Source: Terrisporobacter glycolicus ATCC 14880 = DSM 1288
GTDB lineage: Bacteria > Bacillota > Clostridia > Peptostreptococcales > Peptostreptococcaceae
Length of the DNA: 64,000 nt
Reading direction: 5' to 3'
Assembly: GCF_036812735.1 (NCBI RefSeq)
Contig: NZ_CP117523.1
Location: 1,364,001 to 1,428,000 of the forward strand
Below are positions 3,650 through 51,607 of the stretch, one piece after another (the stretch's first letter is position 1; each line of letters begins with the position of its first letter). A model generated the notes under the pieces. That model made no database searches. It saw only the letters and a list, made by a program, of their open reading frames with translations, and had not been told where the DNA came from. The position numbers were made by a program, and so were the translations under genes.

Positions 3650-3822
3650 CTGATGAAGCTTTACAGAAGAGTTGTCTTAGGACACGCCGAAGGAGTCATA
3701 CTCTCAGGTACTTTTTACAAAGGTGGGACTGTAAAGAATAGGAAACTCTGGAGAGACCCGTAAAGGGAGCCGAAGGGGCAAGGCTTAACTGCTCAATCTC
3801 TCAGGCAAAAGGACAGAGAATA
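3650..3822 (+). promoter_or_regulatory. Tandem glycine riboswitch
   Basis: Two aptamer-like halves are visible. The first has CGCCGAAGGAG, ACTCTCAGGTAC and GGTGGGACTGT. The second has GGAGAGACCC, GCCGAAGGGGCAAGGC and AATCTCTCAGGCAAAAGGACAGAG, the hallmark core of the glycine riboswitch. A terminator hairpin lies just downstream at 3868-3901 and the regulated gene is a sodium/amino-acid symporter. The likely mode is transcription control of glycine/alanine transport. Whether glycine turns the gene on or off is not decidable by eye. Confidence 0.93.
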
Positions 3823-3867
3823 TATATAAAGCATATTTATGCTTTTCTTTAATATGTATGAAATCCT

Positions 3868-28361: not shown

Positions 28362-28468
28362 GACTCTTATCAAGAGAGGTGGAGGGACTGGCCCTATGAA
28401 ACCCGGCAACCAGTACGTTTGTACATGGTGCTAAATCCTGCAACTATTTTTAGTTGAAAGATGAGTAT
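28362..28468 (+). promoter_or_regulatory. SAM-I (S-box) riboswitch
   Basis: Contains the S-box core: CTCTTATCAAGAGAGGTGGAGGGA, CTGGCCCTATGAAACCCGGCAACC, GGTGCTAAATCCTGCA and the closing GAAAGATGAG. A Rho-independent terminator follows at once. The regulated genes encode a methionine ABC importer, so SAM binding should switch the operon off by termination. Confidence 0.96.
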
Positions 28469-38875: not shown

Positions 38876-39952
38876 ATGAAAGCATTAATATTTACAGGCG
38901 CATTTGGAATGGGTCATTATTCAGCAGCAGAAGCTGTAAAAGAAGAAATATTAAGAGAAGAACCAGAAGCAACAGTCATTATAATAGATATGATAGAGTA
39001 TATATTTCCAAAACTTAGTGAATTAATATATTTAATTTTTAACTTTATGGTTAATAAATTCTCCTTAATTTATAATTTTTTTAATAGAATTGTAGCCAAA
39101 AGGACTAGTGTACCACTAAAAAAATCCGTTATGAAAAAAGTAGATTTATTATTAAAAAATAATGATGTTGATCTGGTAATTTCAACTTTTCCAGCTTGCT
39201 CTCAATATTTTTCAGCATATAAAAAAATGAGAAATTGTAATATTCCTCTTTATACTTATGTTACGGATATATCTGTAAATGAGGAATGGATTAGTGAACA
39301 AACAGATTTATATTTTGTAGGCAGCGACATAACAAAAAATTCACTTTTGAGTAAAAATGTAGATAGTGATAAAATAGTAGTTAGTGGTATTCCTGTTAAA
39401 CAAAATTTTAAGAAAGAAAAAATAATAGAAAAGTCAAAGGATAAAAAAGAAGTATTAATAATGGGTGGAGGCTTAGGTCTTATACCTTGTGCAATGGATT
39501 TTTTAGAAAAACTTTCAAAAGATGATAATATAAAAATAACATTTATAGCAGGAAAAAATAAAAAACTACTAGAACATGTAAAAGAAAAGTATCCTAATGT
39601 GGAATCAATTGGATATACAGATAAGGTTGATCAATATATGAAAAAAGCAGACTTAATAATTTCAAAATCTGGTGGAATAACATTATTTGAAGCTATTTTT
39701 AGTGGAACACCATTATATGTCATTAGACCATTTTTATATCAGGAAATAGGAAATGCTCTATATATACAAGACAGTTGTATTGGTAAGGTAATATGGACAA
39801 ACGGAACGGATGTTTATGAAGATGTAACATCTTTATTAAATAATGAATTACTTTTAAAAAGTATGGAAGAAAATATAGTAATTGAAAAAGAAAAATTACA
39901 AAGTACATCACCACTTAATTACTATTATGGAGGTATAACAGCTTGCTATTAA
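38876..39952 (+). CDS. Processive diacylglycerol glycosyltransferase (UgtP/MGDG-synthase type)
   Basis: Transfers sugars from UDP-sugar to diacylglycerol, making membrane glycolipids and the lipid anchor of lipoteichoic-type polymers. 358 residues, two Rossmann domains: the N-terminal MGDG-synthase domain starts GAFGMGHYSAAEAVKEEI, and the C-terminal donor domain has GGGLGLIP and SKSGGITLFEAIFSGTPLY. Slightly shorter than B. subtilis UgtP. First gene of a five-gene operon; it overlaps the next by 10 bases. Confidence 0.88.
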   Translation: MKALIFTGAFGMGHYSAAEAVKEEILREEPEATVIIIDMIEYIFPKLSELIYLIFNFMVNKFSLIYNFFNRIVAKRTSVPLKKSVMKKVDLLLKNNDVDLVISTFPACSQYFSAYKKMRNCNIPLYTYVTDISVNEEWISEQTDLYFVGSDITKNSLLSKNVDSDKIVVSGIPVKQNFKKEKIIEKSKDKKEVLIMGGGLGLIPCAMDFLEKLSKDDNIKITFIAGKNKKLLEHVKEKYPNVESIGYTDKVDQYMKKADLIISKSGGITLFEAIFSGTPLYVIRPFLYQEIGNALYIQDSCIGKVIWTNGTDVYEDVTSLLNNELLLKSMEENIVIEKEKLQSTSPLNYYYGGITACY

Positions 39953-40632
39953 AAATTATAATAATATTGGTTATAATATTGTTGTGTTATAGTATTGTGC
40001 CAACTTATTTATATAAACTTCAATATAAACTAACAAAGAAAAATAATTCAAATGATAAAGTACTATACTTAACTTTTGATGATGGACCAGATGAAAAGTA
40101 TACACCTTGTCTTTTAGATTTGTTAAAAAAACATAATATAAAGGCAACTTTCTTTATGGTAGCAACTTTTGCCAATGATAATCCTATAATAGTAAATAGG
40201 ATGAAAGAAGAAGGACATTGCATAGGTATTCACTCTTATGAACACAAAAATGCTTTATATCAAAGTAAATCTTATACTTCATATGATTTTGAAGAAAGTG
40301 TAAAAACGATGGAAAAACTAGGTGTTAACGTGAAGTTTTATAGGCCGCCTTGGGGGCATTGCAATATATTTACAAATCATGAAGCAAAGAAATATAATTT
40401 AATCAAAGTACTATGGGATGTAATGGCGCAAGACTGGGAAAAAAACACAACAGATCATGTTATATGTGATAAATTATTAAGAAGAAGTAAGGATGGTAGC
40501 ATAATATGTTTGCATGATGGACGTGGCAAAGATGAAGCGCCATCTAGGACAATAAAAGCCTTAGAAAAAGCAATTCCGCTTTGGCAGAAAGAAGGCTATA
40601 AATTTTTGACTATGGAGGATTATTATGAGTAA
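39943..40632 (+). CDS. Polysaccharide deacetylase (carbohydrate esterase 4)
   Basis: 229 residues. N-terminal membrane helix (about 1-22) anchors an extracellular NodB domain: motif 1 TFDDGPDEKYT, motif 2 IGIHSYEHKN (H-S-x-x-H), motif 3 FYRPPWGH and motif 5 IICLHDGRG. All metal and catalytic residues are seen. It likely removes N-acetyl groups from peptidoglycan or another wall glycan. TTG start with TGGAGG 9 bases before, inside the preceding gene. It overlaps the next gene by 8 bases, consistent with translational coupling. Confidence 0.92.
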   Translation: MLLKIIIILVIILLCYSIVPTYLYKLQYKLTKKNNSNDKVLYLTFDDGPDEKYTPCLLDLLKKHNIKATFFMVATFANDNPIIVNRMKEEGHCIGIHSYEHKNALYQSKSYTSYDFEESVKTMEKLGVNVKFYRPPWGHCNIFTNHEAKKYNLIKVLWDVMAQDWEKNTTDHVICDKLLRRSKDGSIICLHDGRGKDEAPSRTIKALEKAIPLWQKEGYKFLTMEDYYE

Positions 40633-41701
40633 AAAAGTTTCTCCAAAAAATATGCTAAAAAACGGTGGTTTATTTATTGGGTTAATATTATTAACTTTTT
40701 ATATGATTTTTAAAAATAATAATATAGAAGAGATTATAAATGCAATCTCTACTTTAAATATAAATTATATAACAATAAGCATAATTTGTAGTTTTACTTT
40801 TGTTATTTGTGAAGGTATAAATATAGGCAGAAGTTTAAAACTTATGGAGTATGAAATTAATTTTCTAACTTCTATAAAATATGCAATTGTAGGCCTATTT
40901 TTTAGTTCTGTAACTCCTTCTGCAACAGGAGGTCAACCAATGCAAGTTTACTATATGCATAAAGATGGAATTCAAGTATCGCATTCATCTTTAGCACTTC
41001 TTATGGACCTTGCCAGTTTTCAGTTCGTTACAGTTACTATGGCTATAATAGGATATATAACTCAACATGAATTATTAGTTAATACTTTGGGTAATATTAA
41101 ATATTTTGTTGCACTAGGTATTTTTTTAAATACATTAGTAATGATATTTATATTAACAGCAATTTTTTCAAAAAGATTTATAGGAAAGTTTATTGATTTT
41201 ATTTGTTTTATTCTAGTGAAAATTAAATATAAAAAAGTAGATAAATTTAAAGAAATGGCATTATGCCAAGTGAAAGAATATAAAGATAGTGCTAAATATT
41301 TTAAAGAAAACAAACTAACAGTTTTAAAAATTGTATTAACTACAACAACACAAATAATAGCTCTTCATAGTATTTCGTTTTGGATATACAAGGCATCTGG
41401 TTTAAGTGGGTATTCTTTTTTAACAGTAGTTATGTTACAATCCGTTTTATACATTAGTGTATCTGCATTACCACTCCCTGGAGCTGTAGGAGCTAGTGAA
41501 AGTGGCTTTATGCTCATTTACAAAACTTTATTCCCAGTTCAACTTTTGAGTTCAGCTATGCTTGTAAGTAGAGGGATAAGTTTTTATTTATTAGTACTGT
41601 TAAGTGGCATTGTTCTTGCAGCTACTTATCTTTTAAACATTAGAGGGAATCATTACATCAAAGTTACGAGAAAAAGAAGAGGTGAAAATTTTGACATATA
41701 A
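40625..41701 (+). CDS. Flippase-like UPF0104 / MprF-N-type membrane protein
   Basis: 358 residues with about eight to nine helices and no soluble domain. SSVTPSATGGQPMQVYYMHKDG in the middle and SVSALPLPGAVGASESGFMLIYKTLFP near the C-terminus are hallmarks of the lysylphosphatidylglycerol synthetase transmembrane (UPF0104) family. That family includes the flippase half of MprF. Without the MprF synthetase domain it may flip a glycolipid made by the first gene of this operon. TATGGAGG precedes the ATG. Confidence 0.85.
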   Translation: MSKKVSPKNMLKNGGLFIGLILLTFYMIFKNNNIEEIINAISTLNINYITISIICSFTFVICEGINIGRSLKLMEYEINFLTSIKYAIVGLFFSSVTPSATGGQPMQVYYMHKDGIQVSHSSLALLMDLASFQFVTVTMAIIGYITQHELLVNTLGNIKYFVALGIFLNTLVMIFILTAIFSKRFIGKFIDFICFILVKIKYKKVDKFKEMALCQVKEYKDSAKYFKENKLTVLKIVLTTTTQIIALHSISFWIYKASGLSGYSFLTVVMLQSVLYISVSALPLPGAVGASESGFMLIYKTLFPVQLLSSAMLVSRGISFYLLVLLSGIVLAATYLLNIRGNHYIKVTRKRRGENFDI

Positions 41702-42398
41702 TATACTTGTTGTAGAAGATGATATAGATATAATAAAACTACTAAAAATTTATCTTGAAAATGATGGACATAGAGTGATTTCTGCTCAGAACGGATTGGA
41801 CGCATTACAGATAATAGAAAATATAAAAGTTGATTTAGTAGTAATGGATATTATGATGCCAAAAATGGATGGCTATGAATTAACCATGAGAATAAGATCG
41901 AAATATACTATTCCAATAATAATTTTATCGGCTAAAAATGAAGATAATGATAAGATAATGGGATTAAATTTAGGTGCAGATGATTATATAACAAAGCCAT
42001 TTAATCCATTGGAAATAGTTGCAAGAATTAATTCTAATTTAAGAAGATTTTATGATTTTAATAAAGTAGTAGTGCCAAAAGATGAAGAAAGACAATTAAT
42101 AGTAGGCGACTTAATTTTAGATACCCAAAAGTTAGCTCTTTATAAAAAAGGAGAAGAAGTTGTAGTAACACCTACAGAATATAAAATTTTGGCTCTTCTT
42201 ATGAAAACACCAGGAAAAGTATATACAAAGTTGCAGATATGTGAAGCAATTAATGGAGATTATATTGAAAGTGACAATAATACTATGATGGTTCATATCT
42301 CTCGATTGCGTGAAAAAGTTGAAGATGATTCTAAAAATCCTAAGTATATAAAAACTGTGAGAGGGATTGGATATAAAATTGCGAAAAAAGAAAAGTAA
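41691..42398 (+). CDS. OmpR-family response regulator
   Basis: 235 residues. Receiver domain with EDD (acid pair), phospho-acceptor Asp in LVVMDIMMPKMDGYEL, T/S in IILSAKNE and K in DYITKPFNPLE. C-terminal winged helix about 135-235 (LTPTEYKILALLM-like VTPTEYKILALLMKTPGKVYTKLQI, RLREKVEDD...IKTVRGIGYKI). TTG at 41691 is chosen because AGAGGTG lies 7 bases before it; the GTG at 41682 overlaps that site. Paired with the histidine kinase immediately downstream. Confidence 0.93.
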   Translation: MTYNILVVEDDIDIIKLLKIYLENDGHRVISAQNGLDALQIIENIKVDLVVMDIMMPKMDGYELTMRIRSKYTIPIIILSAKNEDNDKIMGLNLGADDYITKPFNPLEIVARINSNLRRFYDFNKVVVPKDEERQLIVGDLILDTQKLALYKKGEEVVVTPTEYKILALLMKTPGKVYTKLQICEAINGDYIESDNNTMMVHISRLREKVEDDSKNPKYIKTVRGIGYKIAKKEK

Positions 42399-43971
42399 AT
42401 TTTTCACTATTTTAGTTAGAAATTATATTGCTTTTACAGGCATTATTATAATTTCTATTATATGTATATTACATGGTATAAATCATAGAATAAAAGATGT
42501 TATTAGTGAACCTAGAATTAATGAATTAGTGGATTATGCAAGTTTGATTACAGAGAATGGTAACAATGGAATTAATAAATCGCGTATAAAAAAATTAGCT
42601 GGTAAATATACTTTCATTCAATTATTAGATGAAAATAATAAGGTTATATATGAGAGTGAGCCTGGAAAATTCAATAAAGAATTTACAAAGGGAGAGCTAA
42701 GTTGTATACATGATTATTATGATGATCCTTATATTGATATTCAAAAATATAAAAATGATAAAAATAAACAAAACATATCAGTATCAATAACTTATTATGA
42801 TGAAAATGACGATATTCATAATAAAATTTACGTTGTAGATGATAAATTAAATTTAATATATACAAATACAGGAGATACTAGAAAATCTTTTACTAAAAAT
42901 GAGTTTAAATATTTAACAGGAACTTATCTAAAAGGATATGATATTAGAAAATATTCTTTTAAGGACAAAGATAATAAGAAGCTAACGCTTTTAATCAATA
43001 CTCCTTCTCTTACTAATGAAATATACAAAAAGATTTTAATTACTGGTATATGCGCATTTGCATTATTTATACTAATATATATTATTCTAATTATAATATT
43101 TATAACCTGGCTTAATCATAAAGTAAAAAGACCTATTAATATTTTAAATGAAGCCATTGTTAAGTTTAAAAACGGTGAGCGTGAAAATTATTTAGATTAC
43201 GATGGACCACAGGAATTTTGTGATATTTGTAGTAGTTTTAATGATATGTCAAGGAAGTTGTATAATAGTGAGAAAAAGCGTGAAAGTTTAGAAGAAGAAA
43301 AACAAAAAATGCTTGCTGATATATCTCATGATTTAAAAACGCCAATAACCGTTATAAAGGGATATTCGAAAGCTGTTTGTGATAATATAGTCTCAGAAGA
43401 AGAAAAAGATCAATATCTAATGACTATATATAAAAAAGCAGATCACTTAGATGAATTGATTAATACTTTTTATGAATACAGCAAATTAGAACACCCAGAC
43501 TACAAATTTTTATTTGAAAAAATAGATTTATGTGAATATGGTAGAGTTTATCTTGCAGGAAAATACGAAGAATTAGATATAAATGGAGTAGAGCTGGAAG
43601 CGGATATACCAGATGATCCTATTTATTGTAAGTTAGATAGATTTCAACTAAAACGTGTTTTTGAAAATATTATATCAAATTCACTAAAGCATAATAAAAA
43701 AGAATTATGTATATTATTTGAAATAGAAGAATATTTCGATAAAGTGAAAATAAACATTGCAGACAATGGATATGGAATTTCCGAAGAAATACGTAAGAAT
43801 ATTTTTAACCCATTTGTTGTGGGAGAAAAATCTCGTACAACAAAAGGCTCAGGACTGGGCCTTGCCATAAGTAAAAAAATAGTAGAAGCCCACGGCGGAA
43901 GTATAAAAATTGTGGACGCTAGAAAAAATTATAAAACAGAATTTGAAATTATACTTCCAAGAGAGGTTTAA
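42379..43971 (+). CDS. Sensor histidine kinase
   Basis: 530 residues. Helix 1 at about 10-30, an extracellular sensor region of about 190 residues, helix 2 (about 220-245), HAMP (about 250-300), then HisKA with MLADISHDLKTPITVIKGYSK (H-box), N-box NIISNSLKHN, G1 DNGYGISEE, and G2 GSGLGLAISKKI. Resembles VanS-type wall-stress kinases in context, with glycolipid and deacetylase genes upstream. The start is uncertain: TTG at 42367 or 42379; the latter gives a basic start MRKKKSKFF. It overlaps the regulator gene by 20 bases. A terminator follows. Confidence 0.9.
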   Translation: MRKKKSKFFTILVRNYIAFTGIIIISIICILHGINHRIKDVISEPRINELVDYASLITENGNNGINKSRIKKLAGKYTFIQLLDENNKVIYESEPGKFNKEFTKGELSCIHDYYDDPYIDIQKYKNDKNKQNISVSITYYDENDDIHNKIYVVDDKLNLIYTNTGDTRKSFTKNEFKYLTGTYLKGYDIRKYSFKDKDNKKLTLLINTPSLTNEIYKKILITGICAFALFILIYIILIIIFITWLNHKVKRPINILNEAIVKFKNGERENYLDYDGPQEFCDICSSFNDMSRKLYNSEKKRESLEEEKQKMLADISHDLKTPITVIKGYSKAVCDNIVSEEEKDQYLMTIYKKADHLDELINTFYEYSKLEHPDYKFLFEKIDLCEYGRVYLAGKYEELDINGVELEADIPDDPIYCKLDRFQLKRVFENIISNSLKHNKKELCILFEIEEYFDKVKINIADNGYGISEEIRKNIFNPFVVGEKSRTTKGSGLGLAISKKIVEAHGGSIKIVDARKNYKTEFEIILPREV

Positions 43972-43995
43972 ATTTCAATTAAAAATATTTATTGA

Positions 43996-44029
43996 TGCTA
44001 GGTATGAATTTTAATACCTAGCGTTTTTA
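43996..44029 (+). terminator. Terminator of the glycolipid/two-component operon
   Basis: GCTAGGTAT pairs with ATACCTAGC around an 8-base loop, followed by GTTTTTAA. Confidence 0.85.
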
Positions 44030-44239
44030 ATTATATAAAAATATAAGTACTATATTTTGAAGTATGTAGAAGGTATTACTATCATAGTACTACTTGGTTA
44101 GAAAATAACTATACTTAAGTTTCAGTAAATATATTGTATAATAAGTATAAGGTAATAATTTGTAAACTCATTCAATATTATAGATAATAAAAAATAATAA
44201 TGTAAATATATAATATATGTAGAAAAATAAAAAATATTT
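44030..44239 (+). other. Promoter-bearing spacer before the cobalamin riboswitch
   Basis: About 210 AT-rich bases without an ORF. TATAAT at 44137-44142 is the best -10 candidate, but no convincing -35 is paired with it. Another gene-free stretch (44391-44507) follows the riboswitch and holds a hairpin TTTCCGA/TCGGAGA near 44397-44418, which may be its expression platform. Confidence 0.35.
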
Positions 44240-44390
44240 TTTATTTTGGAAGTGCGGTGAGATTCCGCCACAGATTATCCCTGCTGTAATAAGTTACGAA
44301 ATTTGCTATTACCACTGGAAGCATCTCTGGGAAGGAGCAAAGAGTAGGTTTGAGCTTTAGTCAGAATACAGGCATATTATAAGCTTATGG
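44240..44390 (+). promoter_or_regulatory. Cobalamin riboswitch
   Basis: GGAAGTGCGGTGAGATTCCGCCACAG, then CCCTGCTGTAA, ACCACTGG, CTGGGAAGG and AGTCAGAATACAGGC: the ordered core blocks of cobalamin riboswitches (GGTGNNAATCC, GCCACTG, GGGAAGG, AGTCAGGANACCTGCC). The sequence after it (GCTTATGG...TCCGAAGGCATAATCGGA) can fold as an expression hairpin. The downstream genes encode secreted DUF4430 proteins rather than a usual Btu transporter. B12 binding should repress them. Confidence 0.92.
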
Positions 44391-44507
44391 TGAAAGTTTC
44401 CGAAGGCATAATCGGAGATTTATTTTGCATGTGATTTTTGATAATTATATGTAAATTAATCTTCATTATAAAAAATATTATTTTTAATAAAGAAGGGGAT
44501 GTTTTTT

Positions 44508-45383
44508 ATGAACCAAAGATTTAGAAAATTTGCAACAACAGGAATGGCGGCAGCTATAATGTTATCTATGGGGGCAACATCATTTGCAACTGATTTTTTC
44601 ACAGAGTATCCTAATTTGACTAATTATAATACTGATTATAATTATACTGTTGAGAAAGGAAGTGGAACAAAGGATCAAGCTTTAATGGTTCAAGGTGCAA
44701 CAAGTAATTGGTATGGAACAAGTCTTTTTAATAATTTAGCAGATGCAGATTCTATTAATTGGAATATTGTACAAGGAAGTACAGATGCCGTAAGTGTTAG
44801 CAAACAAGCTCCAGAATCAGTAGCCAATCAATTTGCAGCTAAGGGAAATGCTACGATTGATAAGTCAAAGAATGCAGGAGTGGCAGTTGTAGAAGCAACA
44901 AATAAAACAAATGGATATATGGACTTTACTGTAGTATTAAATCCAACTAGTGCACAACAAGATGTTTCAGGTGTAAATGTAAGAGCATATGATGCTTCAA
45001 GTGGTAGCTTTAAATTTTTAAAGACTAATACAGGTAATGTATCAACAAGTGCTGTAAAATCTAAAATAAATTATCCAACAGCAATGGATGCAATATCAGT
45101 GGTAGCTGATAGTTTTACTTATGATGTACAGTGGGGAAGTGAATTCTTAAAGAATGTGACTATAAATAATAAAAACTATACATATATGGAAAATGAACTT
45201 GGTTGGATGTATAGAGTGTATGATTCTACTGGAACTGCAACATCTGAACAAAAAATGGTAGATGTTTCTGAAAAAGTTGGTGGGGAAACATTTGATGTGG
45301 AATCAGGACAAACTGTTGTTTGGGCATATGGAGACTATAGAGTACAATTCCCAGAAAACTTGTCAGAGCTACCTAATAAATAG
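44508..45383 (+). CDS. Secreted DUF4430-type protein under cobalamin riboswitch control
   Basis: 291 residues from the ATG at 44508, 9 bases after AAGGGG; an in-frame ATG at 44499 touches that site. Signal peptide ends near TSFATD. Residues about 30-180 are a beta-rich domain I do not recognise. Residues about 185-280 fit DUF4430: YPTAMDAISVVADSF, then LGWMYRVYDS and FDVESGQTVVWAYG. Pfam DUF4430 is the C-terminal domain of vertebrate intrinsic factor and transcobalamin. There is no lipobox, membrane helix or sortase motif, so it is free or non-covalently held. Corrinoid binding is inferred from riboswitch plus fold. Confidence 0.75.
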   Translation: MNQRFRKFATTGMAAAIMLSMGATSFATDFFTEYPNLTNYNTDYNYTVEKGSGTKDQALMVQGATSNWYGTSLFNNLADADSINWNIVQGSTDAVSVSKQAPESVANQFAAKGNATIDKSKNAGVAVVEATNKTNGYMDFTVVLNPTSAQQDVSGVNVRAYDASSGSFKFLKTNTGNVSTSAVKSKINYPTAMDAISVVADSFTYDVQWGSEFLKNVTINNKNYTYMENELGWMYRVYDSTGTATSEQKMVDVSEKVGGETFDVESGQTVVWAYGDYRVQFPENLSELPNK

Positions 45384-45479
45384 TTATACAATTAGATCAT
45401 TTTTGCTAATAAATATATAAAATATTATTACAATAAGAGAAAGTATAGATTTATTACATAAATGAAAGTTTGTTATAAA

Positions 45480-45507
45480 TGGGGTGCTCTTATAGCACCC
45501 TTTTATA
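45480..45507 (+). terminator. Terminator between the two DUF4430 genes
   Basis: GGGTGCT pairs with AGCACCC around CTTAT, followed by TTTTATAT. Partial readthrough would place the large surface gene under the same riboswitch; no strong new promoter is evident in the 31 bases between it and the next start. Confidence 0.7.
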
Positions 45508-45538
45508 TATTTATAATATTTTAATTTGGGGGAGTAAT

Positions 45539-48500
45539 ATGAGGAATAAAAACACTAAGAAATTAATTAAAAAATTTGTTAGTTCTTTTCTTGCATTTAT
45601 TATGGTATTTACCCTATCTACAGTATCATCAATAAAATCTTTTGCCGAAGAAGTATTAACAGAAAAAGTACATGTGATAGTAGAAAATACTACGTGCTCT
45701 AAAAAAGATGGAGCAGCATGGGATGGAACTTTAGTAGATGATTGGGTAAAAATTGAAGACAATATGACTATGATGGATGCAATAGTTGAGGCATTAGATA
45801 GTGTAGGAGCTACACAAACAGGTGCAGAAAATAATTACATAAGTGAAATCAATGGACTTAAAGAATTTGACGGTGGATCTAGTTCAGGATGGATGGGAAC
45901 AAAAAATGATTGGTTTGTTAATCAAGGATTTGGGGCATTTAAGGTAAAAGCTAATGATGAAATTAGAGTAATGTATACTATTAACTTTGGAGCAGATATA
46001 GGTGGAGATTATAGTAAAAATGATACATCATTAAGAACTATTGATTTTAGTAAAGGAAGTTTATCGCCTAAATTTAGCAGTGAAACGAAGGAATATACAC
46101 TAACACTTGAAGATACTGATAAAATAAATGTAAAACCTACAGCGACTAATAAAAACTATCAAGTAAGAGTATATAAAGGTGAAGATGTAGATACATCAAA
46201 AGAAGGATATAAAAGAAGTGAAGAAATTAAAGTATCAGATGGAGAAACTATAATAGTTATATGTGGTGATAAGTCTTGGCCTGGTTCAAATGCAAGTATC
46301 AAATCTAGTACGTATACATTTAAAATAAAATCAAATATCAAACCAAACACAGCTCCAGTGCCTAACAAAGAAAGTGATAGTGCAAGCATTAATTTAGGTG
46401 AAACTTATTTACTAGATTTGTCTAAAATATTTAGGGATGAGGAAAATGACAAATTAACATATACAGTATCAGTTAATAATAATGAAGAAGTTGACGCAGA
46501 TTCAAATTATTCATTTAAACCAGAAAAAGCAGGAAATTATAAACTAGAATTTAAAGCAAGTGATGGAAGAAAAGCGTCAAAACCTTATATATTAAATCTA
46601 TCAGTAGATGATGGAAAAGCATATGAAATAAAGACTTTAGATACAGAAAATGGACAAATATCAGTAGATGTAAAAGAAGGTAAATTAAATACAAAAGTTA
46701 CTCTAACTGTAAAACCAAATGAAAATTTTGCAATGGATACATTGGAAATAAAAGATAAAGATGGAAATGATATAGAAAGAGAAATAAATCAAGATAAATC
46801 TGATGGTATTAACTATATATATACATTTGAAATGCCTGCTTCCCATGTGAAGGTAAAAGCTACTTTTGGTAAAGCATATACATATAAAATTGAAGGTCAT
46901 GATTGGTATAATATGTTTGCTTTAGAGGTATACAATAGGTATGGTGAAATAGTAAAACCAAAAGAACTTGTAGAAAAATCTTGGGGAGAAAAATATGGTA
47001 ATGGATTTGAGAAAGGATATTACCATCTGACAGCAGGTGAATATAAATATATTTTTTATGGATACGAAAAAAATATAGGAAGAAAAGGAACGTTCAAAGT
47101 AGAAAAAACTAACGAAGAACAATCAAAAACTTTTTTCCCGTTTGAAATATATATAAACGAAAATAAATTAAATGAAAAAGATAGTAATGAAGTAAATATA
47201 GAAATAACAGATCCAGATGGAAATGTACTTGATATAAAGCCAGGATATAAAGAGGAAACATATCAGGATTATTATTATGTGTTAGAAGCTAAAGGAGAAG
47301 ATAAGAAATATAAAATAAAAGTTACTCCAGTAGATGATAATGTAAATTATAGTTTTACTACTCAAAATTGTGACTCAAGCGATCAAATATATGCATATGT
47401 AAGCGCTAGACTTAATGGATCAAATTGTACAAGTACTAGAACAATCAAAGTTTATTTACAATCTAAAGCTGAAGATCCTGTTGAATATAGAGTAAATAAA
47501 GGGGCAGGTCTTCATCTATACAATACATATGGAGAAGCATATAGAGAACTTTTCGAAGTTAAGTCTCTATCAGTAGATACATCAAACAAAGAATATGATA
47601 GTTATAAATTCCAAGTACCTTCAAATAACTATATGTTAGTAGCTGGTGGAGGAGATACGGAATATGTTAAGACAACTAAACCATATTTTTATTTAGATAC
47701 AGAGAAAGTAAAAGAAGCTATTACTATAGATTTAGTAAAAAAAGAAGACTATGAAGAAAATCCATATTCTCGATATAAGGTGGATGATATCTATACAAAT
47801 ATAGTTGACGAAGGTAGCTATATAAATATGAATGTGGGGGATACCCAAAGACTAGAGACATTTCGTGTATGGCAGGGCATGACAAGTCCCGTTTCAAACA
47901 AATTCTTTGAACCAGATAAACATTATGAAGTTATCTATGGAAAAGAATGCTTATCTATAGAAGAAAAAGGTGGAGAAGGTAGAAAATATGTAAATATGAC
48001 TGGTAAAAAAGATGGGATAGCAGTAATTAAATTTACATACGATTCTTTAATTGAAGGTCAAGAAGCAACTAATAACCCTGGATTTGATAAATCAAATATA
48101 TATGGATTTAACGCAATAGATAAGGAGCAAACAGGAATAGTTATAGTAAATGTAGGCGGTAGTAGAGGAGATATAGATCCTAATTTTAAAGTAAGAAATA
48201 GAGACTGGACAAAATACGATACAGTATATTTTACTGGAGATACAACATATCCAGATGGAACAGTAGTAAAAGGTAAGGGATATGGAGAATATAATTTTAC
48301 ACCATCTAAGGGTGTTACAGTAGAAACACATGATCCAATACATATGGATAGTGATTTTGCAAATAATTGGACAAAATACGAAGCAGATAAAAATGGTTCA
48401 TATACTATTAAAGTTAAGACTGGTAGAAATATAGTAAGAATGACATCTGGTGATAATGTAGTATACTATGTATTAGATGCTATGGAAAGTGATATAAGCA

Positions 48501-51500
48501 TATCTAATGATAGCAATAAAGGTAAGGAGCTTAAAGTAGGAGATAAAGCAAGTGTAAGCTTTACAAATTTAGAAGTTCCAATTTATAAAATGGCCGCTAT
48601 ATATAACCCAGGTTTCCCTGATAGAACATACTTAGTATATGACTTAAACGGAGAAACTATAGAAGGTCCTCATAAGCAATATTCTGTAAATAGTCCTTTA
48701 ACATTTACAATAGATAAAAAGGGTACTTATAAATTATCTAAAGGAAAAGTACATGCAGAGCATATGGGAAGTCCTTTAAATACTCATTGTAGTATACCAG
48801 AAGAAGGTCTACCGCCAGACTTTAATGCAGGATATGGAGATAATGATATTTATTTTAATACTATGCCGGATATAGAAATAAGTGTAGATGATGAAGATAC
48901 ATCAATACTAAGAGCGAAAGTATCAGTTAATGATGAAGAAGGCGGAAAGGCGGCAGTAGAAAAAGTAAGTGAAGATACAGAAAAAGGAACAGCAAAATAT
49001 AAATTAACAGCAATAGCAAATGAAAACTATAAATTTGAAGGATGGAGTGTAAAAGGATCAGATAAAATAATATCAACAGATGCAGAATACGAAGTAGAGA
49101 TAGATAAAAATACAGAGTATGTGGCAAACTTTAAGGTAGCATATATAGAAGATAAAACATTAAGATACACAGTATTAGAAGATGGAACATTATCAGTAAA
49201 AGAGCCGTTGGATGAAAATGTTACAGAAGTTATAATTCCATCACAAGTAAAAGGAAGAAAAGTTGTAGAAATAGAAGATAGAGCATTTTATTCTTGTCAA
49301 GAACTAACTAAAGTAGAATTATCCGAAGGGTTAAAAGAAATAAAAGCAAGAGCATTTATGACTTGTATGTTATTAGAGAGTATAGAAATACCAGAAACAG
49401 TAGAAGTAATAGGTCAATCAGCATTTGCCGGTTGTGAAAACATGAAGTCAGCAAAACTACCAAGTAAATCATTAAAAACAATACCAAAATCATTGTTTAA
49501 TGGTTGTAAGTCATTGGAGAGTATAGAAATACCTGAAGGAATAACAGTACTAAAAGATTCAGTGTTTATAAATTGTGTAAGCCTGAGAGAAATAACATTA
49601 CCAAAAAGTTTGACAAATATAGAATATCCTGAAATGGTATTTAGATATTGCGAAGCATTAAAAACGGTAAAAGGATATAAAGGAACATATGCAGAAGAAT
49701 TTGCAAAAAAATATAAATATACATTTATAGACTTAGATGTAAAAATGCCAGTAGCAACAGTATCAGTTAATGATGAAGAAGGTGGAAAGGCGACAGCAGA
49801 AAAAGTAAGTGAAGATACAGAAAAAGGAACAGTAAAGTATAAATTAACAGCAATAGAAAATGAAAACTATAAATTTGAAGGATGGAGTGTAAAAGGAGCA
49901 GATAAAATAGTATCAACAGATGCAGAATACGAAGTAGAGATAGATAAAAATATAGAGTATGTGGCAAACTTTAAGGTAGCATATATAGAAGATAAAACAT
50001 TAAGATACACAGTATTAGAAGATGGAACATTATCAGTGAAAGAGCCGTTGGATGAAAATGTTACAGAAGTTATAATTCCATCAGAAGTAAAAGGAAGAAA
50101 AGTTGTAGAAATAGAAGATAGAGCATTTTATTCTTGTCAAAAACTAACTAAAGTAGAACTACCAGAAGGGTTAAAAGAGATAAAAGCAAGAGCATTTATG
50201 ACTTGCATATTATTAGAGAGTATAGAAATACCGGAAACAGTAGAAGTAATAGGTCAATCAGCATTTGCCGGTTGTGAAAACATGAAGTTAGCAAAATTAC
50301 CAAGTAAATCATTAAAAACAATACCAAAATCATTGTTTAATGGTTGTAAGTCATTGGAGAGTATAGAAATACCAGAAGGAATAACAGTACTAAAAGATTC
50401 AGTGTTTATAAATTGTGTAAGCTTGAGAGAAATAACATTACCAAAGAGTTTAACAAATATAGAGTATCCTGAAATGGTATTTAGATATTGCGAAGCATTA
50501 AAAACGGTAAAAGGATACAAAGGAACATATGCAGAAGAATTTGCAAAAAAATATAACTATACATTTGTATACTTAGATGTAAAAATGCCAGTAGCAACAG
50601 TATCAGTTAATGATAAAAAAGCTGGAAAAGCAACAGTAGAAAAAATAAGTGAAGATTCGGAAAAGAAAACAGTAAAATATAAATTGACAGCAACAGCAAA
50701 TAAAGAATATATATTTATGGGATGGGCATCTAAAGAAGATGAAAGTAAAATAATATCAGAAGATGAAACATACTCAGTAACTATATTAAAAGATAGTGAA
50801 TATGTAGCAATTTTCAAAGAAGAAGGTAAAGACCCACAAGCTACAATTACTGTGACTCCTAAAAAAGGTGGAAGTGCAAAAGCTGAAATGAAATCAATTG
50901 ATAAAAAGGAAGAAACAGCAATATGGACTTTAACAGCAAAAGCTAATACACATTATGAATTTGTAGGATGGATGCTAAAAGGTAAGGATAAAGTAGTATC
51001 AACAAATGCAACATATGAGGTAAAGATAGACAAAGACACAGAATATGTTGCAAAATTTAAATATGTAGGAGAATATCCACAAGTAAGTTTAAATACAAAT
51101 GAAGAAAAATTCGGAAATGTAAGTTTTGAACTAGTAAATCAAAATGAAGACGACTTAACATCTCAGTGGAAGTTAACAGCGACACCAAATAAAGGATATA
51201 AGTTTGTAAAATGGGTAAAATCAGGAAACAAAGATACTATTTTAAGTGAAGATACAGAATATATTGTAACTATAAGTGAGGACACAACATTTATAGCAGT
51301 CTTTGAAAAAGAACAATCAGACAATACGGATGATAATGGACCAACAGATAACGATGATAAGGATGACAACAATAATAATCAATCAAGTGATAATGATAAA
51401 GATAAAGATAATAATAACAACCAATCAGACAATGAAGATAATGACCAATCAAATAACAATACTAATCAAAACACTAATAATGACAATAATTCAAATTCTA

Positions 51501-51607
51501 TAGTTAAAACAGGAGATCAATCATCAATATGGCTTTACAGTGGAATTTGTATTATATCAGTTTGTATATTAGGATTTGTTATATTTAACAGAAGAAAGAG
51601 AAGATAA
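45539..51607 (+). CDS. Giant wall-anchored surface protein: DUF4430, cadherin-like, InlB-B and BspA leucine-rich repeats
   Basis: 2022 residues from the ATG at 45539 (GGGGGAG site). Signal peptide to about residue 37 (KSFAEE). About 38-150: DUF4430 (MTMMDAIVEALDSVG, SSGWMGTKNDWFVN, VKANDEIRVMYT). About 155-260: cadherin-like beta-sandwich. Then Ig/cadherin-like and a long unassigned region. About 1125-1690: two copies of InlB B-repeat (YKLTAIANENYKFEGWSV) plus BspA leucine-rich repeats (SIEIPETVEVIGQSAFAGC). Three or more further InlB-type repeats follow, then an Asp/Asn-rich stalk and a sortase signal IVKTGD, hydrophobic helix and RRKRR. Likely adhesin and corrinoid-binding surface protein; ligand unproven. 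Confidence 0.82.
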   Translation: MRNKNTKKLIKKFVSSFLAFIMVFTLSTVSSIKSFAEEVLTEKVHVIVENTTCSKKDGAAWDGTLVDDWVKIEDNMTMMDAIVEALDSVGATQTGAENNYISEINGLKEFDGGSSSGWMGTKNDWFVNQGFGAFKVKANDEIRVMYTINFGADIGGDYSKNDTSLRTIDFSKGSLSPKFSSETKEYTLTLEDTDKINVKPTATNKNYQVRVYKGEDVDTSKEGYKRSEEIKVSDGETIIVICGDKSWPGSNASIKSSTYTFKIKSNIKPNTAPVPNKESDSASINLGETYLLDLSKIFRDEENDKLTYTVSVNNNEEVDADSNYSFKPEKAGNYKLEFKASDGRKASKPYILNLSVDDGKAYEIKTLDTENGQISVDVKEGKLNTKVTLTVKPNENFAMDTLEIKDKDGNDIEREINQDKSDGINYIYTFEMPASHVKVKATFGKAYTYKIEGHDWYNMFALEVYNRYGEIVKPKELVEKSWGEKYGNGFEKGYYHLTAGEYKYIFYGYEKNIGRKGTFKVEKTNEEQSKTFFPFEIYINENKLNEKDSNEVNIEITDPDGNVLDIKPGYKEETYQDYYYVLEAKGEDKKYKIKVTPVDDNVNYSFTTQNCDSSDQIYAYVSARLNGSNCTSTRTIKVYLQSKAEDPVEYRVNKGAGLHLYNTYGEAYRELFEVKSLSVDTSNKEYDSYKFQVPSNNYMLVAGGGDTEYVKTTKPYFYLDTEKVKEAITIDLVKKEDYEENPYSRYKVDDIYTNIVDEGSYINMNVGDTQRLETFRVWQGMTSPVSNKFFEPDKHYEVIYGKECLSIEEKGGEGRKYVNMTGKKDGIAVIKFTYDSLIEGQEATNNPGFDKSNIYGFNAIDKEQTGIVIVNVGGSRGDIDPNFKVRNRDWTKYDTVYFTGDTTYPDGTVVKGKGYGEYNFTPSKGVTVETHDPIHMDSDFANNWTKYEADKNGSYTIKVKTGRNIVRMTSGDNVVYYVLDAMESDISISNDSNKGKELKVGDKASVSFTNLEVPIYKMAAIYNPGFPDRTYLVYDLNGETIEGPHKQYSVNSPLTFTIDKKGTYKLSKGKVHAEHMGSPLNTHCSIPEEGLPPDFNAGYGDNDIYFNTMPDIEISVDDEDTSILRAKVSVNDEEGGKAAVEKVSEDTEKGTAKYKLTAIANENYKFEGWSVKGSDKIISTDAEYEVEIDKNTEYVANFKVAYIEDKTLRYTVLEDGTLSVKEPLDENVTEVIIPSQVKGRKVVEIEDRAFYSCQELTKVELSEGLKEIKARAFMTCMLLESIEIPETVEVIGQSAFAGCENMKSAKLPSKSLKTIPKSLFNGCKSLESIEIPEGITVLKDSVFINCVSLREITLPKSLTNIEYPEMVFRYCEALKTVKGYKGTYAEEFAKKYKYTFIDLDVKMPVATVSVNDEEGGKATAEKVSEDTEKGTVKYKLTAIENENYKFEGWSVKGADKIVSTDAEYEVEIDKNIEYVANFKVAYIEDKTLRYTVLEDGTLSVKEPLDENVTEVIIPSEVKGRKVVEIEDRAFYSCQKLTKVELPEGLKEIKARAFMTCILLESIEIPETVEVIGQSAFAGCENMKLAKLPSKSLKTIPKSLFNGCKSLESIEIPEGITVLKDSVFINCVSLREITLPKSLTNIEYPEMVFRYCEALKTVKGYKGTYAEEFAKKYNYTFVYLDVKMPVATVSVNDKKAGKATVEKISEDSEKKTVKYKLTATANKEYIFMGWASKEDESKIISEDETYSVTILKDSEYVAIFKEEGKDPQATITVTPKKGGSAKAEMKSIDKKEETAIWTLTAKANTHYEFVGWMLKGKDKVVSTNATYEVKIDKDTEYVAKFKYVGEYPQVSLNTNEEKFGNVSFELVNQNEDDLTSQWKLTATPNKGYKFVKWVKSGNKDTILSEDTEYIVTISEDTTFIAVFEKEQSDNTDDNGPTDNDDKDDNNNNQSSDNDKDKDNNNNQSDNEDNDQSNNNTNQNTNNDNNSNSIVKTGDQSSIWLYSGICIISVCILGFVIFNRRKRR
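48920..49759 (+). repeat. 840-bp tandem coding unit, copy 1
   Basis: Encodes one InlB B-repeat plus one set of BspA leucine-rich repeats (280 residues). It is followed immediately by copy 2; I count about 30 mismatches by eye, near 96 % identity, with no gaps. Confidence 0.92.
49760..50599 (+). repeat. 840-bp tandem coding unit, copy 2
   Basis: Exact 840-bp register with copy 1. A third, diverged start of the unit (InlB-B part only) begins at 50600. Confidence 0.92.

Follow-up and report, generated by a model that had tools for sequence, protein, structure and literature searches.

A cobalamin riboswitch and two DUF4430-type extracellular proteins of Terrisporobacter glycolicus as a probable corrinoid capture pair

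Introduction

Surface proteins of low-GC Gram-positive bacteria that resemble transcobalamin and carry a soluble-ligand-binding beta-grasp (SLBB) domain were proposed as B12 scavengers by Burroughs et al. in 2007 (PMC1796856; here and below, statements on published work refer to excerpts of the papers cited). Members of this transcobalamin-like clade are described there as variously bearing wall anchors and toroid fusions, occurring as paired paralogues and having CbiO/CbiQ beside them, and in transcobalamin itself the authors assign much of the B12 contact to the toroid half (PMC1796856); the word "riboswitch" is absent from their text. Here we analyze a 64,000-nucleotide stretch of Terrisporobacter glycolicus ATCC 14880 = DSM 1288 (contig NZ_CP117523.1, positions 1,364,001 to 1,428,000 of the forward strand; hereafter the window) in which a cobalamin riboswitch precedes the gene of a secreted protein, P1, and that of a large wall-type surface protein, P2, both related to the transcobalamin beta-domain-like family DUF4430 (PF14478). 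With a probability of roughly 0.7, we read the locus as encoding a pair of corrinoid capture proteins that is controlled by a cobalamin riboswitch and lacks a transporter. Sequence, predicted fold and genome context alike favor this reading, in support of the extracellular B12 scavenging suggested in a preliminary description of this DNA.

To our knowledge, little is understood of how Gram-positive bacteria capture cobamides outside the membrane. Identifying B12 transport systems has been called an open problem for many gut genomes (PMC6593275), and DUF4430 has been noted in fish transcobalamin-like proteins (PMC4350170). The B12 domain of the Bacteroides protein BtuH was reported to have no known structural homologue, and BtuH homologues were found in three Firmicutes, one of them near a cobamide transporter of the energy-coupling factor (ECF) kind (PMC8941943). 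Term searches of PMC2667541 and PMC12751083 left this picture unchanged, and in the open-licence literature, preprints excluded, we found no paper that links such proteins to riboswitches or tests the 2007 prediction.

Results

The DUF4430 domain of P2 resembles B12 carriers in its predicted fold. Read from position 45539, P2 has exactly 2022 residues, and its N-terminal part matches PF14478 with an E value of 2.3e-11 (44.4 bits against a curated cut-off of 23.8). Together with the VKTGD motif, transmembrane stretch and RRKRR tail recognized by eye at its other end, and with three sortase genes in the genome, this agrees with the preliminary description of a 2022-residue, sortase-anchored protein with DUF4430 at its N-terminus. 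The structural model of the domain, with a predicted local distance difference test (pLDDT) score of 92.9, finds its best solved matches in the PDB among intrinsic factor, haptocorrin and transcobalamin, and appears to have the fold of the C-terminal beta-grasp domain of transcobalamin, the very domain with which comparison had been suggested. Among named records the domain is nearest to that of T. mayombei (97%), followed by T. petrolearius (91%). Residues 60-290 are kept at more than 90 bits in 20 distinct proteins, that of the window among them (22 rows less two duplicates), and the core region farther along is shared with certain large DUF4430 proteins encoded in riboswitch/ECF operons and with proteins near all five distant homologues of P1.

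The case for P1 is less direct. The DUF4430-like C-terminus first ascribed to it is borne out by profile comparison and not by a direct search, in which P1 matched nothing in Pfam, PF14478 included, even at an E limit of 10, HMMER filters discarding most weak matches. Aligned by hhalign with the DUF4430 profile, a C-terminal profile of three P1 sequences gave 75.9% (E 2.3e-5), and when the same comparison was re-run its score was 32.7, whereas 100 column shuffles averaged 11.5 and reached at most 17.5; with the P2-type profile the match was weaker (33.5%, score 27.0, shuffle maximum 22.3). A profile of eight family members raised the DUF4430 match to 95.7% (E 1e-8), and one distant homologue (L181:6668-7597) by itself exceeds the Pfam DUF4430 cut-off (29.1 versus 23.8 bits). 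Because of the eight-member alignment, the column shuffles and this one homologue, we assign P1 on sequence grounds to DUF4430 as a divergent, family-level homologue. A PDB sequence search with P1 returned no match at E up to 1, and its single-sequence AlphaFold model (pLDDT 36) was set aside.

The riboswitch, P1 and P2 follow one another in that order on the forward strand (Table 1). The aptamer match covers the whole RF00174 model (1-189) at an E value of 3.4e-12 for the window, is the only cobalamin riboswitch there, and is near-identical in T. mayombei and T. petrolearius. A cobalamin riboswitch before P1 had been claimed and is confirmed; it begins at 44200, so that the start of 44240 given earlier falls within the aptamer. 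A chance match was considered and rejected on the strength of the E value and of its conservation in the three species. The hairpin directly after the aptamer is also near-identical in the three species. In the scanned stretch, the pattern scan found three terminator-like sites, against a shuffle mean of 0.4.

Riboswitches accompany DUF4430 at other loci too. Our survey of named loci comprised the best 80 of 107 found, and a riboswitch model built from 23 riboswitches was run on these and on the window, three of the loci (L073, L074 and L104) having themselves supplied sequences to the model. All 57 matches at E<=0.1 lay on the plus strand, which is the DUF4430 strand. Of these, 50 passed E<=0.001, namely that of the window and 49 others spread over 44 of the 80 loci, again all 49 on the DUF4430 strand. 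The next plus-strand frame of at least 120 residues encoded a DUF4430 protein after 32 of these 49 riboswitches; among the other 17, two were P1 itself and several were other signal-peptide proteins. Rfam, run independently on 21 loci, placed a cobalamin-class riboswitch in 14, each time on that same strand (14/14). Within the host family, 20 genomes with DUF4430 held 55 matches in 33 loci, 14 of which had an upstream riboswitch within 12 kb, and all 19 riboswitches found at such distances were upstream and on the same strand.

Many of these loci also encode ECF transporters. At E<=0.001, profiles made from the host family's own cassettes matched EcfT in 63 of the 80 loci, EcfA in 65 and EcfS in 59; other ATP-binding cassette (ABC) ATPases were picked up by the EcfA profile as well. 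The order riboswitch, DUF4430, EcfT was found on the plus strand in 31 of the 44 riboswitch-bearing loci, and at least two DUF4430 frames ahead of EcfT, together with EcfA and EcfS, in 22 of them; such loci occur, for instance, in Clostridia, Paenibacillus and Propionibacteriaceae. The PDB comparison covered two S-components. That of L055 (G052) matched CbrT (6FNP) at E 5.9e-12 with the next S-component at 0.077, and that of an ECF cassette in the T. glycolicus genome itself matched CbrT at E 3.9e-10 with the next at 0.53. As observations in their own right, the large first genes of three riboswitch/ECF operons (L094, L124 and L088) combine DUF4430 with toroid matches of the squalene-cyclase/prenyltransferase type, over cut-off only in L094, and with SLH anchors; L104 and L055 have CWB2 anchors in place of SLH; and in L053, L055, L058 and L123 a DUF4430 gene is preceded by two cobalamin riboswitch matches no more than about 1.5 kb apart.

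P1 was found in 3 of the 71 host-family genomes searched. Its homologues outside Terrisporobacter occupy five places in three genomes of another family, where a protein with the P2 core lies close by at all five (blastp; in L179 and L181 one frame stands between) and a cobalamin-class riboswitch precedes the P1 homologue at two. At one of the two (L177), an adenosylcobalamin riboswitch (RF01482) is followed by the P1 homologue and by a 1198-residue protein that shares with P2 both the N-terminus (33% over 304 residues) and the core (33% over 642 residues); at the other (L178), the order is cobalamin riboswitch, a 260-residue frame, the P1 homologue and a 1910-residue DUF4430/SLH protein. The order riboswitch, P1, P2 thus recurs in a second family at two of five places. 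The remaining three are paralogues in one small genome (G282: L179, L180 and L181), each near a P2-core protein; those of the latter that were scanned had no DUF4430 match over cut-off.

Table 1. Coordinates in the window of the riboswitch, the P1 and P2 genes, their domains and the terminator-like hairpins
Feature	Position	Strand	Basis or remark
Terminator-like hairpin ahead of the riboswitch	43994-44025		Pattern scan
Cobalamin riboswitch aptamer, RF00174	44200..44391	+	Rfam, 59.4 bits versus gathering score 31.5
Terminator-like hairpin with weak T-rich tail, directly after the aptamer; candidate expression platform	44394..44421	+	Pattern scan
P1, secreted, 294 residues; divergent DUF4430 at C-terminus	44499..45383	+	Signal peptide by eye; no wall anchor seen
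P1, divergent DUF4430 segment, residues ~192-281	45072..45341	+	hhalign and relative L181
Terminator-like hairpin between P1 and P2: 8 pairs (5 G-C), then T-rich tail	45481..45501	+	Pattern scan
P2, surface protein, 2022 residues	45539..51607	+	Signal peptide, DUF4430, core, BspA-type leucine-rich repeat (LRR) blocks, InlB-B-like repeats, sortase-type tail
P2, N-terminal DUF4430 (transcobalamin beta-domain-like), 123 residues modelled	45647..46015	+	PF14478; pLDDT 92.9
P2, core region	47456..48898	+	blastp: 36-37% identity to L177 and L178, 27-29% to L082 and L115
P2, first BspA-type LRR block (approximate)	49217..49675	+	
P2, second BspA-type LRR block	50108..50500	+	PF13306
P2, sortase-type sorting signal: VKTGD, hydrophobic/transmembrane stretch, basic tail RRKRR	51500..51604	+	By eye

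Upstream of the locus lie genes for a histidine kinase and, by eye, a response regulator; downstream lies feoB, which is convergent. The earlier statement that no Btu-type transporter adjoins the pair is correct. Among window frames of at least 100 residues no match to the EcfT or EcfS profiles was found, and the four EcfA matches are all other ABC ATPases distant from P1 and P2; the set of EcfT, EcfA and a CbrT-like S-component that marks an ECF-CbrT-type locus is thus absent from this one. In two Terrisporobacter genomes without the pair (L167 and L170), the feoB side consists of one gene unmatched in the window followed by orthologues of the window's 32-38 kb genes, because of which the block from about 38876 to 51607, regulator pair included, is judged from sequence comparison to be accessory; in the third such genome (L168) the contig ends inside feoB. 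Besides the regulator pair, P1 and P2, the block holds glycosyltransferase-like, deacetylase-like and flippase-like genes (names mostly by eye). Elsewhere in the window, a glycine riboswitch (3738-3826) and an S-adenosylmethionine riboswitch ahead of a MetNIQ-like transporter (28364-28467; transporter named by eye) are ordinary.

Candidate corrinoid transporters are encoded elsewhere in the genome. The ECF cassette mentioned above (G000:C1:3124819-3138627; L014, L015), 1.7 Mb from the pair, comprises the CbrT-like S-component, EcfT, a fused EcfA and a lipoprotein with DUF4430. Near 3.50 Mb are two operons named by eye as BtuFCD-like, each preceded by a riboswitch, and a cobalamin riboswitch at 643 kb precedes a cbiMNQO-like operon (also named by eye). 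Next to the ECF cassette are encoded a membrane cohesin (PF00963, 1.9e-11) and a toroid-like protein of a family with a dockerin at its end: Dockerin_1 matched two orthologues, below cut-off, but did not match the organism's own copy, and the family profile matched PDB dockerins at about 1e-3. By sequence, the whole arrangement resembles an intrinsic factor divided between two chains that cohesin-dockerin pairing would join. Two other strong cobalamin riboswitches have unusual targets named by eye: one (3549802-3549990, minus strand) lies upstream of an RseC-like gene and one (224412-224586, plus strand) upstream of a PcrA/UvrD-like helicase gene.

Discussion

We favor corrinoid capture because the predicted fold of the P2 domain matches B12 carriers, riboswitches lie on the DUF4430 strand, EcfT accompanies DUF4430 in 63 of 80 loci, and the S-components compared are CbrT-like. 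In such a system, low intracellular cobalamin would allow the riboswitch to let transcription through, and P1 would be produced and exported as a soluble binder of the DUF4430 type. P2, expressed by read-through of the conserved terminator or from its own promoter, would be exported and fixed by sortase to the peptidoglycan with DUF4430 at its free N-terminus. Jointly, the two may bind cobamides or cobinamides outside the membrane, raising their concentration at the cell surface, and hand them over to transporters encoded elsewhere, either the CbrT-like ECF cassette or the BtuFCD-like operons.

A number of observations weigh against this reading, which counts both B12 binding and B12-responsive expression among its inferred points. 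DUF4430 by itself does not prove a B12 ligand, and DUF4430 proteins far from any riboswitch occur in this very genome (G000, 408 kb and 896 kb). A search of P1 and P2 with an E limit of 1 revealed no alpha/alpha toroid family, and both lack the bipartite build of intrinsic factor and transcobalamin, in which toroid and beta domain sandwich B12. P1 does not reach the PF14478 cut-off, nor do four of its five distant homologues. The pair is present in three of six Terrisporobacter genomes, and the three-row P1 profile, run against 393 genomes of the order, found P1 in only six, three of Terrisporobacter and three in the other family, where the three copies of G282 (L179-L181) had no cobalamin riboswitch match. 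The window aptamer is the lowest-scoring of seven cobalamin riboswitches in the genome. The model found no riboswitch at E<=0.001 in 36 of the 80 named loci, of which Rfam recovered three (L079, L085 and L089), Rfam found no cobalamin-class riboswitch in 7 of its 21 loci, and 19 of the 33 host-family loci have no listed riboswitch within 12 kb, some of them being near contig ends. One of these 19 is the organism's own ECF/DUF4430 cassette, where a search of the first 2.7 kb found no riboswitch, nor is one of the genome's seven placed there. The hairpin kept between P1 and P2 is a further difficulty, discussed below. Finally, because the genome encodes CbiD, the organism probably makes corrin rings besides catching corrinoids, and transcobalamin-like SLBB proteins are usually found in bacteria lacking key B12 enzymes (PMC1796856).

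How far the riboswitch's control extends is where the preliminary description needs its main correction. The riboswitch was first described as driving both proteins; its position before P1 stands, whereas its drive of P2 may be limited to read-through, a conserved terminator intervening. Because the hairpin at 45481-45501 is kept in all three pair-bearing Terrisporobacter, T. mayombei and T. petrolearius included, P2 is probably transcribed either by attenuated read-through or from a start of its own. The riboswitch might then control P1 only, with P2 transcribed separately and no riboswitch-driven pair, an arrangement that would fit both the conserved hairpin and the roughly 155 additional bases that T. 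petrolearius has between it and P2. We consider such separate transcription rather unlikely, however, since the scan found no plus-strand promoter-like site between the end of P1 and the start of P2, a riboswitch lies just before P2-type matches in seven other Clostridia loci (L076, L079, L082, L083, L085, L087 and L088), and P1 and a P2-core protein occur together at five of five places in another family.

The architecture of P2 raises the further question of whether it is mainly an adhesin, its DUF4430 ligand not a corrinoid and its B12 control a response to an environmental signal. LRR_5 and Flg_new_2 repeats form much of the protein, the LRR part resembles PDB LRR proteins, which were the only matches in a PDB sequence search with P2 at E up to 0.01, and NCBIfam gives a weak match to HupY, an adhesin, at 66.8 bits (cut-off 1250). 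It is the N-terminal part (60-290), however, that is widely kept, whereas close matches to the LRR part are confined to the P2 proteins of Terrisporobacter, with weak ones in L112, L116 and L149. Moreover, the DUF4430 proteins of riboswitch/ECF operons carry differing anchors (SLH, CWB2), and the DUF4430 fold of P2 best matches B12 carriers, which together make a primarily adhesive role improbable. We regard cobalt or another tetrapyrrole as a very improbable ligand in place of a cobamide or cobinamide, for although cobalamin riboswitches also control cobalt transporters, as at the organism's own cbiMNQO-like operon, and PDB entry 3u7z from Ruminococcus gnavus is titled 'putative metal binding protein', both S-components compared resemble CbrT, a transporter of B12 and cobinamide, no CbiM-type match appeared, and the fold matches are B12 carriers. 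That entry (3U7Z, RUMGNA_00854) was compared by its title alone, and we know of no ligand for it.

Haemophores are free proteins that bind haem away from the cell. Returning to corrinoid capture, we speculate, as an unlikely extension, that P1 is a secreted "cobalophore" that would bind cobamides off the cell and pass them to wall-bound P2, thence to the DUF4430 lipoprotein and the CbrT-like ECF transporter. In that case, transcobalamin-type domains would form a relay of three steps within a Gram-positive wall, with a B12 riboswitch as its switch. We know of no extracellular binder for CbrT. Regardless of the relay, the riboswitch linkage lends independent regulatory support to the structural prediction of 2007 and connects the B12 carriers of animals with a system for nutrient capture in bacteria, namely Clostridia and Paenibacilli, and the 123-residue domain of P2 offers a small, well-predicted target for direct binding work.

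BtuG and BtuH belong to Gram-negative outer-membrane systems. P1 and P2 were rejected as BtuG homologues, having no sequence match to it and sitting in a different cell envelope, and the analogy drawn in the preliminary description holds for function and not for relationship, as PDB sequence searches with P1 and P2 returned neither BtuG nor BtuH. What the systems may share is a surface protein thought to hold B12 for an importer, as in the case of BtuG and as described for BtuH (PMC8941943). Unlike intrinsic factor, haptocorrin and transcobalamin, to which identity is 12-18% in the Z-ranked rows, P1 and P2 have no toroid that we could find, and P2 is apparently wall-anchored. ECF-CbrT (PDB 6FNP, PMC5997447) has a homologous S-component in two of the DUF4430/ECF cassettes; unlike that system, a group II transporter with a shared ECF module (PMC5997447), the T, A and S components here sit with DUF4430 proteins. 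The closest comparison is with the transcobalamin-like SLBB clade, whose description predicted this class and led us to reject the notion that it is categorically new (PMC1796856). The pair in the window differs from the clade in having neither transporter genes nor a toroid and adds to it the P1 family, which in Terrisporobacter has no Pfam match. Like the clade, for which B12 scavenging was proposed, the DUF4430 proteins described here appear to be secreted or wall-anchored, often occur as two paralogues per operon and accompany CbiO/CbiQ-like transporters (PMC1796856).

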